From: Methanolobus chelungpuianus
Lineage (GTDB): Archaea; Halobacteriota; Methanosarcinia; Methanosarcinales; Methanosarcinaceae
Reading direction: 5' to 3'
Length of the DNA stretch: 64,000 nt
NCBI RefSeq assembly: GCF_024500045.1
Contig: NZ_JTEO01000006.1
Span: 186,001-250,000 of the forward strand
The position numbers and the translations under genes were made by a program. Position 1 is the first letter of the stretch, and each line of letters begins with the position of its first letter. The notes beneath the pieces are model-generated. The model was given only the letters and a program-made list of their open reading frames with translations. It was not told the origin of the DNA and made no database searches. Below are positions 51,633-64,000 of the stretch, one piece after another.

Positions 51633-53252
51633 TCATTTTAAGAGCCTCTCCATATCCTCTTCTATGGTTGTGTTCGGTGTAATAGCGAACTTCTCCACAA
51701 GCACTTTGAGGACATTTGGTGAGATGAATGCCGGAAGTGTCGGGCCAAGTGTAATATTCTTTATTTCGAGCCTCAAAAGGGTAAGCAATACAAGGACCGC
51801 CTTTTGTTCGTACCAGGCGATATTGTATGAGATCGGTGCCTCATTGACATCTGTAAATCCGAGTCTTGCCATAAGACCCTGTGCAATTACAATCAATGAG
51901 AATGAGTCATTACACTGCCCTGCATCAAGCACCCTTGGAATTCCATCAATTTCCCCCAGGTTAAGTTTATTGTAGCGATACTTTGCACATCCGGCAGTAA
52001 GAATAACGGTATCTTTGGGCAATGCTTCTGCAAAATCCGTGTAGTATTGCCGGTCTTTATGCCGTCCGTCGCAGCCTGCCATGACAATGAACTTCTTTAT
52101 CTTTCCTGTTCTGACAGCATCAATGATCTTGTCTGCATTAGACAACACGGAGTTGTAAGCAAAGCCTCCCATAATGGTACCTTCTTCCAGTTGTATCGGA
52201 GGTTCACATGTCTTTGCCTGCTCGATGAGAGCAGAGAAATCTTTCTTACCATTCTCTGCTTCAATATGTGTAACATCGTCATAACCTACGGAGCCTGTGG
52301 TGTATAGCCTGCCAATATAGCTATCCCTTGGAGGAATTATGCAGTTGCTTGTCAGTAATATCGGACCGTTGAAACTCTCGAATTCCTCTTTCTGATGCCA
52401 CCATGAACCTCCATAGTTGCCTACCAGATGTTCATATTTCTTAAATTCAGGATACGAGTGTGCAGGGAGCATCTCACCATGAGTATAGACATCCACGCCT
52501 GTTCCTTCGGTCTGATCCAGTAGTTGTTTCAGATCCTTCAGGTCATGTCCGCTTATGAGAATCCCGGGATTGCCTCTTGCTCCTATGTTAACCTGCGTAG
52601 GTTCAGGATTTCCGAATTCAGCTGTATTCACCCTGTCAAGGTCTGCCATCACATCAAAGCCTTTTTCCCCGCATTTCAGGACCAGTGAGATGAGATCCTT
52701 ATCGTTCAGGCTGTCATCCGTGGTTGCCACAAGCCCTTCTTCAATGAACGAGCTGACTTTCTTGTTGATATTACCAAGCATCATAGCATGATGTGCATAT
52801 GCTGCAATTCCTTTGATACCAAAGATCAACAGTTCCCTTAATGACCGGATATCTTCATTCTCTGTTGCAAGTATGCCTGTATTCCTGTCACTGAGGTTCG
52901 CAGGGGTCAAAGTTGCAATCTCGGGCAGATAGTTCTCATCAAGTGCATCGTTTTCCAGAAGCTTCTGCCTGATCTCATTCCGGATCTTGAATCCTCTGTT
53001 GATGCGCTCCTGAATTCCGGTAGCTCTGAAATCAGTATTAGTTATGGTTGAGAATAATGCATCAAGCATAAAATCATCAGTGCTCTTCTCGGAAACGTTT
53101 GCCTTTCTTGCTTTCTGGTTGTAGAATGCAATACTCTTAAGCACATAGATGAGATCATCCTGAAGGTCTGCAACCTCCCCTTTCTTACCGCACATCCCAT
53201 TCATTGTGCAGCCTTTCCCTTTCATTGTTTCCTGACACTGGTAGCAGAACAT
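51633..53252 (-). CDS. hcp: Hydroxylamine reductase / hybrid cluster protein, copy 1
   Basis: 539 residues. The N-terminal [20 protein letters not shown] begins a Cx2Cx8Cx5C cluster motif of the class found in strict anaerobes. Hybrid-cluster ligands appear in [44 protein letters not shown] and [11 protein letters not shown]. Hcp reduces hydroxylamine and, in vivo, probably NO, so it protects against nitrosative stress. GGTGAT lies 4 bp before the ATG. A TTTATATAAT box is present in the upstream region. A second, diverged copy is 8 kb downstream. Confidence 0.95.
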
Positions 53253-53463: not shown

Positions 53464-53931
53464 TTAACCCACACTGCTCTCCACAGGGCCGGATGGGACC
53501 TGCGGCCTTCTGTACTCGCCCATGAGTTCTCCTTTGGCAAGTATATGGGACTGCATTGCATCCTCTATCTCATTCCTGTCCTTCCCGGTGATGAAATCGA
53601 GCCGTGTGTCAAGGGCATAGGCCATGAAATAGTATCTGTGCGTGCCTTCGGAGGGACAGGGGCCGCAATATGATATCCTGTTGAAGCCGTTCATGCCCTC
53701 CACGCCGGGAACAGTGTCCTCGTCGATGTCTTCCACGAAATCAATGTTCCATACTATCCAGTGGGTCATCGTCCCAGAAGAGGAATCCACCCCATCGACT
53801 ATCACTACGATGCTCACTGTGGCAGATGGCAGATCCTCGAAACTAAGAGGCGGGCTTATATTCTCCCCGTCACATGTGTATCTGGCCGGTATCATCTCCC
53901 CATGCTTAAAAGCGCTGCTGGTAACTAACAT
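53464..53931 (-). CDS. YbhB/YbcL (PEBP, Raf-kinase-inhibitor-like) protein
   Basis: 155 residues from ATG 53931, preceded by GGTGA 8 bp upstream. Blocks RYTCDGENISPPLSFEDLP, SIVVIVDGVDSSSGTMTHWI, NRISYCGPCPSEGTHRYYFM and the C-terminal helix follow the PEBP pattern with the conserved GPxxPxxxxHRY. The ligand pocket is intact. Bacterial and archaeal members have no settled role. The start codon lies 4 bp after the upstream phosphoribosyltransferase stop (53936), so the two genes are coupled. Confidence 0.87.
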   Translation of the reverse strand: MLVTSSAFKHGEMIPARYTCDGENISPPLSFEDLPSATVSIVVIVDGVDSSSGTMTHWIVWNIDFVEDIDEDTVPGVEGMNGFNRISYCGPCPSEGTHRYYFMAYALDTRLDFITGKDRNEIEDAMQSHILAKGELMGEYRRPQVPSGPVESSVG

Positions 53932-53935
53932 ATCT

Positions 53936-54589
53936 TCACTCACCTTCCATTTGTTCTGTTTCACTGCAACCCTTATCGATTATTTCAAGTACCTCATCAT
54001 CGGAAACATCATACCAGTTCATGTAGACCTGGGCGACGGCCATGAAACGAGCAGGGATTTCCAGCACCACGAGCTCATCGACCATCCGGGACACCTCTTC
54101 AGCAACCTCCCTGCCGGCAACCGGCACTGCAACCACGATCTTCTCGGCATTCCTTTTCCTGCACAGCATTATTGATGCCCGCATAGTGGAACCCATGGCA
54201 AGCCCGTCATCGACCAGTATGACCGTCCTGCCCCCGATCTCCGGCAGCGGTCTGCCACCTCTGAGCACCTGTACCCTCCTGCGTATCTCCCCGGACTGCT
54301 CGTCAACTATCCTTTCTATATCCTCCGACGGCACCCACATTGCAGCATCCTCAAAAATGAAGACACTGTCATCTTCGGCTATGGCCCCGAACCCGGCCTC
54401 CGGATTATCGGGAAAAGGCAGCTTCCTTGTAACCAGCAACGAAAACTGAGCACGAAGGTGCTCTGCCACTATGCAACCCACCTCCACGCCGCCCCTGGGT
54501 ATGGCAAGCACCAGCACATTCTGGCCCCTGTACTTTTCCAGCCGGCTGGCAAGTTTCAAACCCGCATCCTTCCTGTCCCTGAATGTCAT
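53936..54589 (-). CDS. Phosphoribosyltransferase-fold protein
   Basis: 217 residues. It opens TFRDRKDAGLKLASRLEKYR and contains VLAIPRGGVEVGCIVAEHL. The PRPP loop is VILVDDGLAMGSTMRASIML, with the two acidic residues at VDDG. This class (sometimes fused with dienelactone hydrolase in bacteria) has no firm substrate. The ATG follows GAGGTG at a 3-bp gap. It begins 7 bp after a truncated short-chain dehydrogenase gene and is coupled to the following YbhB-like gene. Confidence 0.8.
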   Translation of the reverse strand: MTFRDRKDAGLKLASRLEKYRGQNVLVLAIPRGGVEVGCIVAEHLRAQFSLLVTRKLPFPDNPEAGFGAIAEDDSVFIFEDAAMWVPSEDIERIVDEQSGEIRRRVQVLRGGRPLPEIGGRTVILVDDGLAMGSTMRASIMLCRKRNAEKIVVAVPVAGREVAEEVSRMVDELVVLEIPARFMAVAQVYMNWYDVSDDEVLEIIDKGCSETEQMEGE

Positions 54590-54596
54590 CTGCACC

Positions 54597-54899
54597 TCAG
54601 CCTGTCAACAGTCTCCTTACAGCCACCCCGGAATTGTTGACAAGGAGACCCATTTTTCCAAAATGTTCCATGGGATCTGATACCATAGCGCAGACACCGG
54701 TTTCTTTCCTGATGTCAGTATCGACGGCCAGGGACTCCGACCCAATGTTCTCGACCGATCTGCGGACCTGTGCTATCTCGTCCCTGCTCCCCGCGGTCAC
54801 GACAATGTTCGCACCTTCTCTTGCAAGTGCAAGGCATGTGGCCTTTCCAATGCCCCGGCCCCCGCCCGTAACAATGGCTACGCTGTCCTTGAGCCTCAA
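54597..54899 (-). pseudogene. Truncated short-chain dehydrogenase (N-terminal part only)
   Basis: 100 residues that start as an intact SDR: DSVAIVTGGGRGIGKATCLA, ANIVVTAGSRDEIAQVRRSV, then LLVNNSGVAVRRLLTG and stop. Normal SDRs have about 250 residues; the Ser-Tyr-Lys catalytic residues are absent. The cofactor-binding half could fold alone, but loss of the active site suggests a 3' truncation, with the downstream phosphoribosyltransferase gene starting 7 bp after the stop. Reading-frame integrity of the remaining part suggests the truncation is recent or the fragment is retained. Confidence 0.65.
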
Positions 54900-54923: not shown

Positions 54924-55277
54924 TCACTCCACTGTAACGGAACCTATCATTCCGGGATGTATCGTGCACGAGTAATTGAAGAGACCTGGTTCCTCAAAAG
55001 TATAGTTGAAAGTTCCGTCCGGTGATATCTCACCTGAATCAAAATCGCCGTTATCCGCAACTACATTATGAGCCGTCTTATCATTATTCGTCCAGGTAAC
55101 AGTATCCCCGGCAGAAACCCTGATGTCCTGAGGCAGGAAACGATAGTTCTGCATCGTGACATCTGTCGTTTCAATCTCTTCCGGGGGCTGGGCTTCCCCT
55201 GGCGACTGGTAATCCGTACATCCTGAGATAAAGGCTGCTGCTGCCAGCAGTGCAAGCACAAAAAGTATTCGTTTCAT
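54924..55277 (-). CDS. Plastocyanin/azurin-like copper lipoprotein
   Basis: 117 residues. The signal sequence ILFVLALLAAAAFISGC ends in a lipobox. The cupredoxin fold follows (QNYRFLPQDIRVSAGDTVTW). Type 1 copper ligands are visible as His70 (TAHNVV), Cys104, His107 and Met110 (CTIHPGM), with the usual Met axial ligand. It would be a membrane-attached electron carrier facing outside. A second cupredoxin, with Gln in place of that Met, is encoded 1 kb further on the same strand. It lies 24 bp upstream of the truncated dehydrogenase. Confidence 0.9.
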   Translation of the reverse strand: MKRILFVLALLAAAAFISGCTDYQSPGEAQPPEEIETTDVTMQNYRFLPQDIRVSAGDTVTWTNNDKTAHNVVADNGDFDSGEISPDGTFNYTFEEPGLFNYSCTIHPGMIGSVTVE

Positions 55278-56310: not shown

Positions 56311-57120
56311 TCATCCTGTTACAATGACCTGCCCCGTGGTCTGATAAGGATGCACTGCACACATATAATAATAAGTGCCCGCTTCTGTGAATGTGTAGCT
56401 GTAGGAATCTCCCTGTCGCAGGGCTTCGGACCTGAACCCGCCGCCATCTATAGTATGGACTGCTGAATCCATGTTTGTCCACCTTACAGTGTCACCCACC
56501 GCAATGGTGACAGAAGCCGGATCAAAGTCAAAGTTCCTGATATTGACTTCAGTTACCGGGTAAGGAGTGCCTGTTATATAAGCAGTATAGATATAGTCAT
56601 TAGCTGCCTCTATGGAATGACAGTCCCGGCACGACTCAATCCTTCCCTCGATTATTACCTCCCCTTCCGGAGTGTAGGCAGCCCAGAACCAGTCATTGTG
56701 CTTAGGGTCATAATCTTCTACCTTGTAACGCACACCTATTTCTCTGAGCTCGCCTTCCGAATCATAGCTTTCCCTTACCACCATGCTCCCGTAAGGCAGG
56801 GCACCTGCCCTGTTCTCTATGGCAGGCAGGGCATTGTCCGAGACATAGGTGGTGAGCAGGGGACCGTGAACACTGACACTTGCATACCTCTCCTCCCTCA
56901 AAGGCCACAGGTCCCAGTTTCGGTAGCTGTTCTCTTCAGCAATGTAACTGTATACTTGACTTCCATTTGGTTCAGGAAGTCCTGTCTGCACGGGTTCGGG
57001 CTCAGCAGGAGGCACTTCCGGAATTTCTGTGCCTGCATCGTCCTCATCCTGTGCACCGGTACATCCGGTTGCCAGAAACACACCTATAAGAATAAGAAAG
57101 ATTATCATTTCAATCTTCAT
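56311..57120 (-). CDS. Lipoprotein fusing a cytochrome P460-like heme-c domain and a cupredoxin
   Basis: 269 residues from ATG 57120. The signal MIIFLILIGVFLATGC ends in a lipobox, and an acidic/Pro-rich linker follows. Residues about 50-175 resemble the cytochrome P460 domain (YIAEENSYRNWDLWP, YGSMVVRESYDSEGELREIG, YDPKHNDWFWAAYTPEGEVI) and carry one CxxCH heme motif, Cys164-Cys167-His168 (CRDCHS). Residues about 180-269 form a cupredoxin with ligands His222, Cys254 and His257. The axial Met is replaced by Gln260 (CAVHPYQ), as in stellacyanin. This combination in a methanogen suggests a membrane-attached redox protein outside the cell. Confidence 0.75.
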   Translation of the reverse strand: MKIEMIIFLILIGVFLATGCTGAQDEDDAGTEIPEVPPAEPEPVQTGLPEPNGSQVYSYIAEENSYRNWDLWPLREERYASVSVHGPLLTTYVSDNALPAIENRAGALPYGSMVVRESYDSEGELREIGVRYKVEDYDPKHNDWFWAAYTPEGEVIIEGRIESCRDCHSIEAANDYIYTAYITGTPYPVTEVNIRNFDFDPASVTIAVGDTVRWTNMDSAVHTIDGGGFRSEALRQGDSYSYTFTEAGTYYYMCAVHPYQTTGQVIVTG

Positions 57121-57289
57121 CAACAAACCCCGATTATATGATTGGCTGCTCAATTGAAATACTTTTATGTCCGAGAAAGGGTGCATTTATGCTGCACGCG
57201 GATAGAGCACTATTTGAGCACTGCCACAGCAAAACAGAGTAATGCCTGAAGATCAGGTAAAAGGTATAAAAGGAATTTAGGAGAATAGA

Positions 57290-60773: not shown

Positions 60774-62390
60774 TCATAGAAGGACCTTGAGGTCCTCCTG
60801 AACTGTTGTGTGCGGCCTGATGTTGAACTTCTCGACCAGCACATTGAGTATGTTGGGCGAGATAAACGCCGGCAGGGTGGGACCGAGAGTTATGTTCCGC
60901 ACTCCAAGGCTCAGCAACGCCAGCAGCACAAGCACGGCCTTCTGCTCGTACCATGCGATGTTATATGCTATTGGAAGGTCGTTGATGTCCTCAAGTCCGA
61001 ATGCTTCCGCAAGTTTCTGCGCAATGACCACCAGCGAATAGGAATCGTTACACTGGCCTGCATCCAGGACCCTTGGGATACCTCCGATGTCTCCCAGATC
61101 AAGCTTGTTGTAGCGATACTTGGCACAGCCCGCAGTGAGGATAACGGTGTCCTGCGGCAGGGCCTTTGCGAAATCCGTGTAATAGCTCCTTTCCTTGTGC
61201 CTGCCGTCGCATCCGGCCATGACCACGAACTTGCTGATCTTTCCGCTCTTGACAGCATCCACTATCTTATCGGCAACTGAGAGAGCTGATGCGTGTGCAA
61301 ACCCTCCTACGATGGAGCCTTCCTCGAGCTGCTCGGGCGGCTTTGATTTCTTCGCCTGCTCGATTATGGCATAGAAATCCTTTGTGCCGTCTTCCTTTTC
61401 CTCGATGTGGGTCACACCCTCACATCCTACAATGCCTGTGGAGTATATCCTGTCAGTGTATGTTGCTTTCGGAGGTACCAGGCAGTTAGTGGTCATCAGT
61501 ATGGGACCGTTGAACTTCTCGAACTCCTCTTTTTGCTTCCACCACGCGCCTCCGTAATTGCCTACGAAGTTATCATAGTTCTTGAATGCGGGATAACAGT
61601 TTGCAGGAAGCATTTCCCCGTGGGTGTACACGTCCACGCCTGTACCCTTGGTCTGCTCAAGGAGCTGCTCGAGATCACGCAGGTCATGTCCGCTTATGAG
61701 TATGCCCGGCCTGTCGCGAACTCCTATGTTCACTTTTGTGGGCTCGGGGTTGCCGTAGGTGGAAGTGTTTGCCTTGTCCAGCAGGGCAAGCGTTGTGACC
61801 CCCATCGAGCCGCATTCCATTACAAGGCCCACAAGCTCATCGGCTCCGACCTTGTCGTCTGTTGTTGCCACAAGGGATCTTTCCATAAACTTGAATATTT
61901 CATCGTCCTTGAACCCGAGCACATAAGCATGGTGGGCGTAGGCAGCTATGCCCTTGAGGCCGAAGATCAGCAGCGACCTGAGTGAACGGATATCCTCATT
62001 ACCGGGAGCGTTAAAACTTGTGTCTATACCCTTGATGCTTTCAGGAGTGACCTTTGCAACTTCCGGAAGCTCTCCAAGGGAAATGTTTTTGCTTACCAGC
62101 TTTTGTTTAATGCTGTCCCGTATATCAAAACCTTCCCCGAGGAGTTTCTCAGCATTTTCCTTACTGAAGTTAGTGTTTGTAAGCGTGGCGAAGAGCCCGT
62201 CAAGCATGAACCTGTCCGTTCTTTCCTCGTTGACCCCATGCTCCCTTGCTTTCATATTGTAGAAAGCGATGCTCTTCAGCAGATATATCAGGTCGTCCTG
62301 CAATTCGGCGACCTCGCTCTTCTTTCCGCAGACACCCACTTTTATACAGGCCTGCCCACTTGCTGTTTCTTCACACTGGTAACAGTACAT
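60774..62390 (-). CDS. hcp: Hydroxylamine reductase / hybrid cluster protein, copy 2
   Basis: 538 residues from ATG 62390, preceded by GGTGA at 5 bp; the longer in-frame extension is not needed. [20 protein letters not shown] begins the same Cx2Cx8Cx5C cluster motif as copy 1. Conserved hybrid-cluster regions are the same ([40 protein letters not shown]). The two copies are clearly homologous along their whole length but differ in many surface positions, so the duplication is not recent. It heads the block that includes cupin, FTR, ferredoxin and fwd genes. Confidence 0.95.
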
Positions 62391-62402
62391 TTGTTTCACC
62401 AC

Positions 62403-63494: not shown

Positions 63495-63620
63495 AAGCAT
63501 CATTGATGAAAAGACCTGATTGGGCTGATTAATCTCGATTTGATAAGAGGTCTACAGAGTTAGAGGCAGGTTCACAGTGTGAATCCAAAAACGAGATTTA
63601 TATCAGAGGTGGGTGATAGT

Positions 63621-64000
63621 ATGAAAAATAAGAATGAAATATTTAGACGCTTATATGAGCGGGGAAGACGAAAAAAAATCAATGATATAGCCGGATCTAC
63701 TGGATTGTTGCTTATTATCGGAATACTGTTCTCAGTACTTATTTTAAGTGGCAGTGCAGCCGATACAAACAATTCTACATCTTCTGACAATGTTAGTACA
63801 GCTGCAGACAATAGCTCTATTATTAAAGCAGCAGAAGACAATAGCTCTATTATTAAAGCAGCAGAAGACAATAGCTCTATTATTACAGCAGCAGCAGACA
63901 ATAGCTCCATTTTAAATGAAGATGCAGTTCAAGTTAATTTTAAGAAGGAAAAATACAACAAACTATTGAAAAAAATGAAAGATGAACCTGCTCTGAGGAA
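63621..64000 (+). CDS. Secreted repeat protein, 3' end cut by window edge
   Basis: The frame runs 126 codons from ATG 63621 to the edge without a stop. GGTGAT lies 3 bp before the ATG. A basic N-terminus (RRLYERGRRKKIND) and the hydrophobic segment STGLLLIIGILFSVLILSG form an N-terminal signal or anchor. Then a 10-residue unit NSSIIKAAED recurs four times, the DNA being a 30-bp tandem repeat at about 63800-63910. Each unit has an Asn-Ser-Ser glycosylation sequon. A Lys-rich segment (FKKEKYNKLLKKMKDEPALR) follows. It is probably a surface protein; the family cannot be named from this part. Confidence 0.6.
   Translation, partial: MKNKNEIFRRLYERGRRKKINDIAGSTGLLLIIGILFSVLILSGSAADTNNSTSSDNVSTAADNSSIIKAAEDNSSIIKAAEDNSSIITAAADNSSILNEDAVQVNFKKEKYNKLLKKMKDEPALR

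Follow-up and report, generated by a model that had tools for sequence, protein, structure and literature searches.

The fusion gene and its neighbourhood

The window (the whole stretch of 64,000 nucleotides of Methanolobus chelungpuianus DNA that was analysed) has, at 56311-57120 on the minus strand, an open reading frame of 269 amino acids that joins a c-type heme domain of P460 fold to a type 1 cupredoxin in one probable lipoprotein; this is confirmed by translation, Pfam and the comparison with orthologues. An ATG at 57186, upstream of the start of the gene, is likewise in the open frame. The N-terminal signal is closed by the motif FLATGC with Cys20 (57061-57063; all features of the gene are on the minus strand) as the probable lipidated residue: the lipobox was called by eye, with no predictor used, and the Cys is kept in the orthologues.

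The signal is followed by a linker of low model confidence and by the P460-family domain (residues 65-179, 56584-56928), which matches PF16694 (Cytochrome_P460) with 34.7 bits at a cut-off of 27 and contains CRDCH (residues 164-168, 56617-56631), a CxxCH site of c-type heme attachment with His168 as the proximal ligand. The cupredoxin domain (residues 188-267, 56320-56559) matches PF00127 (Copper-bind) over residues 191-267 with 33.1 bits (cut-off 21.2) and Cupredoxin_1 with 27.7 bits (cut-off 27); for all domain calls in the fusion, the curated cut-offs of Pfam served as threshold. This C-terminal domain has both the fold of a type 1 cupredoxin and its His, Cys and His ligands, namely His222 (56455-56457) and the pair Cys254-x2-His257 (56350-56361), all of them invariant in the intact orthologues. 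Copper-bind and Cupredoxin_1 were the only Pfam families found for the copper domain, with no sequence match to the phytocyanin family (stellacyanin), and its best NCBIfam model is amicyanin, with a score under the cut-off of that model. An earlier note on this DNA, made from the letters only, had described a heme-c P460-family domain and a cupredoxin in one lipoprotein of a methanogen. This is borne out: the reading frame and the positions that it gave for CRDCH, His222, Cys254, His257 and Gln260 agree with the translation, both domains are above the Pfam cut-offs and conserved in the genus, and the host, a Methanolobus, is a methanogen.

The AlphaFold model of the mature protein (mean pLDDT 79.7, pTM 0.56) consists of two confident beta domains, the relative placement of which is not fixed. 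In the heme domain, which is predicted to have helices and five beta strands, most residues have a pLDDT above 75; the low confidence near the heme motif and in the linker is expected for a model without heme. Foldseek matches the copper domain best to 5fc9, a structure of the purple cupredoxin from Nitrosopumilus maritimus, with a TM-score by target length of 0.77; amicyanins come next, and the M98Q mutant of amicyanin (2idt) is among the solved chains closest to the copper domain. The best 50 Foldseek matches are all cupredoxins or multicopper proteins and include no P460 fold, because cupredoxins took up the listed matches; the P460 half is assigned from Pfam, alignment and predicted secondary structure. 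Structure prediction, which the earlier note had proposed as a check, thus agrees with two separate domains and leaves the P460 half without confirmation by fold search. Another of its checks, a search for cytochrome c maturation genes, found CcmE and two CcmC/CcmF-type proteins encoded in the genome of the fusion; in Methanosarcina, ccmABCEF suffices for the attachment of heme c (PMC9084895).

A second cupredoxin lipoprotein, with a Met axial motif (CTIHPGMIG), is encoded on the minus strand at 54924-55277 and is the likely redox partner of the fusion. A Met-type cupredoxin gene adjoins the fusion also at the loci L039, L040, L041, L046 and L105, and L083 has the same order; no such gene was found beside the fusion in L042-L045. 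A SnoaL-like gene between the fusion and the cupredoxin was set aside, as it is not conserved at this place. Locus comparison identified two further conserved neighbours on the same strand, a phosphoribosyltransferase-domain protein (53936-54595) and a PEBP/YbhB-family protein (53464-53964); the short-chain dehydrogenase at 54597-54899 (minus strand) is truncated to 100 amino acids and is intact, with 232 amino acids, at the same place in relatives (e.g. L039).

Two hybrid-cluster (prismane) proteins (51633-53252 and 60774-62402) are encoded within 11 kb, one to either side of the fusion. As these Hcp proteins are related to hydroxylamine and NO, a nitrosative-stress island was considered and rejected: Hcp is not generally conserved beside the fusion and is present in all 15 Methanolobus genomes tested, with the fusion present or absent, as well as in genome G130, so that the nearby Hcp genes are no signal. 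In the loci read, multiheme cytochromes are absent from the surroundings of the fusion; a protein with six CxxCH motifs is encoded elsewhere in the genome (L055). At 63572-63910, the window also has a low-complexity open reading frame with repeated ELLSSAALII units.

Distribution and conservation of the fusion

Intact orthologues of the fusion are present in 9 of 27 Methanolobus genomes, and a tenth genome (G023) has a copy that is broken across frames (L046:9380-10300), either a pseudogene or an assembly error. The intact orthologues are 64-82% identical (a search for relatives with a single sequence gave only two, both Methanolobus, with 74-76% identity), and the CxxCH motif and the His/Cys/His set are invariant in them, indicating that the fusion is more than chance. 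Wherever synonymous change is short of saturation, dN/dS relative to the window copy is 0.05-0.21 for the heme domain and the copper domain alike. These values indicate strong purifying selection on both domains, and both halves therefore look like working parts.

P460 domains are present in 47 of the 238 genomes of the class, and the fusion holds the sole P460 domain that was found in its genome. In a phylogenetic tree of P460 domains, the nine Methanolobus fusions form one clade (support 100/99). In genomes G007 and G013, a separate P460 gene adjoins a Met-type cupredoxin gene, and the neighbours of this pair (a phosphoribosyltransferase and a cytidylyltransferase-like gene) are of the same kinds as those of the fusion; the pair thus looks like an unfused version of the fusion locus. 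Fusions of P460 and cupredoxin domains are also found outside the genus: L083, from a different genus of the family (genome G130), has such a fusion followed by a second cupredoxin gene, and a third family is represented by one genome with a strongly diverged fusion (L062). The P460 tree is compatible with a single origin of all fusions and also with several origins. In three genomes of another family of the order (L051:10273-11145, L107:7208-8071 and L108:6544-7416), the P460 domain is followed in the same protein by a cupredoxin-like domain in which the copper ligands are missing. A plasmid search gave, among the matches listed, matches to the cupredoxin domain only.

Two further features were observed in the course of these comparisons. 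A cupredoxin-like family of Methanolobus, with a member in the genome of the fusion itself (L056:8508-8873) and others in L093, L094 and L096-L099, has no ligand Cys (YYLLSHPWTGSG and similar) and is 45-53% identical to the copper domain of the fusion. In L049, L053, L054, L057 and L058, a stand-alone P460 gene is found between a YcaO/TfuA-like gene pair and an aminotransferase-like gene; this locus is conserved and is near a metal ABC transporter (gene names were assigned by eye).

The heme domain

A sequence search of the PDB with a Methanoperedens-like P460 query identified 7s5o (NeCP-beta) as the best solved match of an archaeal P460 member, and also 7ead (TtCP-beta); both are cytochromes c'-beta. 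Kelch designs that matched the P460 domain of the fusion itself were rejected, as the short match (YDPxHNDW) is due to chance. Met79, Ala109 and Arg46 of NeCP-beta, as listed in a published table (PMC11928373), are positions 59, 89 and 26 of the 7s5o chain, and this constant offset of 20 served as check of the position mapping.

In the alignment to 7s5o, the place of the Lys that cross-links the heme in cytochrome P460 (NeP460 Lys70, NeCP-beta Met79; Table 2 of PMC11928373) is taken by Arg116 (56773-56775). All nine Methanolobus fusions have Arg in this column, as against Lys in 32 further archaeal sequences of the P460 alignment and Met in L062. The Arg116 codons differ synonymously among the fusions (AGG, AGA, CGG), which shows that the Arg is maintained. 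In the column of the distal carboxylate (NeP460 Glu96), which acts as proton relay in hydroxylamine oxidation, the fusions have Gly129 (56734-56736); the matching residue in McCP-beta and TtCP-beta is Gly82 (PMC11928373). The fusion thus has neither of the two residues that characterise a strict cytochrome P460, and what it does have, as judged from Pfam, alignment and predicted secondary structure, is the same fold without the cross-link Lys, which is characteristic of cytochrome c'-beta. With both exchanges, the fusion resembles cytochrome c'-beta and not the hydroxylamine-oxidising P460. Judging from these residues, the heme domain is P460 by fold only, not in cofactor chemistry, and the description as 'P460-like' in the earlier note is right for the former and wrong for the latter.

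A further residue of possible importance is His85 (56866-56868), part of a near-invariant HG motif of archaeal P460 domains and possibly located in the distal pocket: it is invariant in one alignment of these domains; L107 has Asn instead. In stand-alone P460 lipoproteins of methanogens (L080, L072, L074, L064 and others), the cross-link Lys is invariant, although formation of the known heme cross-link requires oxygen or peroxide (PMC11928373), which makes its retention puzzling.

The copper site and its axial residue

The ligand loop of the window protein reads C-A-V-H-P-Y-Q-T-T-G and is one residue longer than the loops of amicyanin (C-T-P-H-P-F-M-R-G) and L083 (C-T-I-H-P-Y-M-E-G). An axial Met, which is usual but not universal in type 1 cupredoxins, follows His257 neither in CAVHPYQTTGQVIV nor in any orthologue; the two candidates for the axial place are Gln260 and Thr261 (56338-56343).

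Residue 260 is Gln in seven, Lys in one and His in one of the nine intact orthologues (Arg in the broken copy of G023). All nine have Thr as residue 261, with a third codon base that is free to vary (Val in the broken copy). The Met-x-Gly register of amicyanin ahead of the last strand, which is also found in plastocyanin and azurin, lands on Thr261 in the fusion. In agreement, the last strand begins one residue past the Met in the AlphaFold model of L083 and one residue past Thr261 in that of the fusion, with Gly second in both, and L062, which has a loop of the same length as the fusion, has Met in the Thr261 column. Among loops of this length in 394 genomes, Met is four residues after the His at at least 150 sites versus about 50 by control, and three residues after the His at about 63 sites versus about 53 by control (control totals were summed by eye). 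The gap placed by HMMER and MAFFT falls after Gln260 and pairs it with Met98 of amicyanin, and two Methanoperedens-like cupredoxins with the same loop length (L142 and L143, genome G038) have Met three and Gly six residues after the His (HPNMPHG, HPAMPGG), an uncommon loop.

Strand register, invariance and substitution pattern point to Thr261 as the residue in the place of the Met, whereas gap placement points to Gln260, so that either may be axial. Gln260 is not conserved and may have no contact with the copper. What stands of the type 1 site that the earlier note had described are the invariant ligands His222, Cys254 and His257; its axial Gln has become doubtful.

Possible functions of the fusion protein

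We tentatively favour a redox protein with two centres, anchored to the membrane, in which the heme binds a ligand and the copper exchanges electrons with the neighbouring Met-type cupredoxin. The fusion itself, its ligands, its substitutions, its conservation and the presence of the neighbour can be read from the sequences compared here. The lipoprotein would be anchored to the outer face of the cytoplasmic membrane and would, when loaded with heme and copper, have two redox centres. The heme, with His168 as proximal ligand and, by homology, a probably open distal face, would bind a small molecule; with Arg116 and Gly129, it would not carry out hydroxylamine oxidation of the P460 type. The likeliest ligand may be NO, as this is one of the ligands studied for the hemes of the c'-beta class, for which a gas-binding function was proposed (PMC11928373), and as the Nitrosopumilus purple cupredoxin, which has the nearest copper fold, is capable of oxidising NO to nitrite (PMC6790972). 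The copper site would be trigonal (His222, Cys254 and His257) with no Met, and would exchange electrons with the heme and, probably, with the cupredoxin encoded at 54924-55277. Blue copper sites usually have potentials well above zero. Given that the potential of McCP-beta is -205 mV (PMC11928373), electrons would flow from heme to copper if both centres have potentials typical of their families.

The adjacent P460 and cupredoxin genes of G007 and G013, the order of fusion and cupredoxin in L083 and the Ccm genes argue for this model. The near-invariant His85 could count against it: as a possible sixth ligand of the heme, it would leave this centre to carry electrons only. In a rival reading, which we consider somewhat unlikely, the two centres hand on electrons along a chain at the outer face of the membrane, perhaps to an acceptor outside the cell, and neither catalyse a reaction nor bind a ligand. 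His85 as sixth ligand would fit this reading, cupredoxins are indeed mostly electron carriers (PMC4059628), the genome encodes the protein with six CxxCH motifs, and Methanosarcina is known to pass extracellular electrons through MmcA (PMC11024163). However, none of the loci read has a multiheme cytochrome adjoining the fusion, and nothing observed supports the link to extracellular electron transfer that the earlier note had suggested. Moreover, what the P460/c'-beta fold is known for elsewhere is the binding of ligands, not the carriage of electrons (PMC11928373), and an intact fusion in only 9/27 Methanolobus genomes indicates that the protein is not in a core chain.

We consider it unlikely, in the light of the loop comparisons, that Gln260 is the axial ligand of a copper site of the stellacyanin kind and lowers the potential of the copper, which the earlier note had proposed. 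The gap placement, the M98Q amicyanin among the closest solved chains and the register of the two Methanoperedens-like loops are consistent with it, and any of Gln, Lys and His could be a ligand; against it are the variation of residue 260 beside an invariant Thr261, the start of the last strand in the two models, which aligns Thr261 with the Met of L083, and the Met counts, which are well above control four residues after the His and near control at three. In a nitrite reductase, Thr at the axial place caused a rise in potential of 100 mV (PMC4059628); by this precedent, Thr261 in the place of the Met would raise the potential, opposite to the stellacyanin argument.

Speculative and rather improbable is the idea that both metal sites were altered together in the Methanolobus lineage, the heme losing its cross-link Lys and the copper its axial Met, and that both are open to an outside ligand: the protein could then be an enzyme that handles NO in a single chain and without oxygen, with NO bound by the heme and the electron taken by the open copper. 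It is very improbable that the protein is a cytochrome P460 that oxidises hydroxylamine and passes the electrons to its own copper domain: membership in the Pfam family and the upregulation of the P460 gene of Methanoperedens under conditions of DNRA, accompanied by the release of N2O (PMC12909507), would fit, but Arg116 and Gly129 replace the cross-link Lys and the distal carboxylate, no cross-link-deficient P460 characterised to date is active and the need of the cross-link for oxygen or peroxide (PMC11928373) is a poor fit to a strict anaerobe.

Relation to known proteins

Cytochromes c'-beta (NeCP-beta, 7s5o; TtCP-beta, 7ead; McCP-beta, 6hih) have Met or Phe at the cross-link position, where the fusion has Arg; the fusion further differs from them in being cupredoxin-fused, membrane-anchored and archaeal, and known c'-beta sequences are described as proteobacterial (PMC11928373). 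In Methanosarcinia, stand-alone P460 lipoproteins such as L074 and L080 have the same lipoprotein domain, mostly 35-51% identical to that of the fusion, but are unfused and have kept the cross-link Lys; L074 and L071 adjoin a cupredoxin gene. The L083 fusion shares the P460-cupredoxin layout and the trailing cupredoxin gene with the Methanolobus fusions but retains both the Lys and the canonical axial Met (HPYMEG), and is outside the Methanolobus fusions in the P460 tree. Amicyanin has the fold, the trigonal His-Cys-His ligands and the C-x2-H spacing in common with the fusion and differs in its axial Met98 and the loop that is shorter by one residue. Nmar1307 (5fc9) shares the fold and the His-Cys-His ligands, but is a single-domain protein; it is said, by Hosseinzadeh in 2016, to be a purple cupredoxin with an open axial site.

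A modelling study of 2015 noted P460-type monoheme cytochromes in archaea (PMC4429474), and a review of the P460/c'-beta superfamily from 2025 has no mention of archaea, methanogens or fusions (PMC11928373). In the literature searched, which took in only a minority of subscription papers, no paper was found that brings P460 and cupredoxin domains together in a methanogen. What is new in the fusion is how two domains of known kinds are combined, together with a change at each metal site that is specific to the lineage.

As a methanogen protein that fuses P460-type heme and copper domains and has a key residue changed at each site, the fusion extends the known range of the superfamily. It also provides natural variants for two chemical questions, the substitute for the heme cross-link in anaerobes and the copper site without an axial Met.
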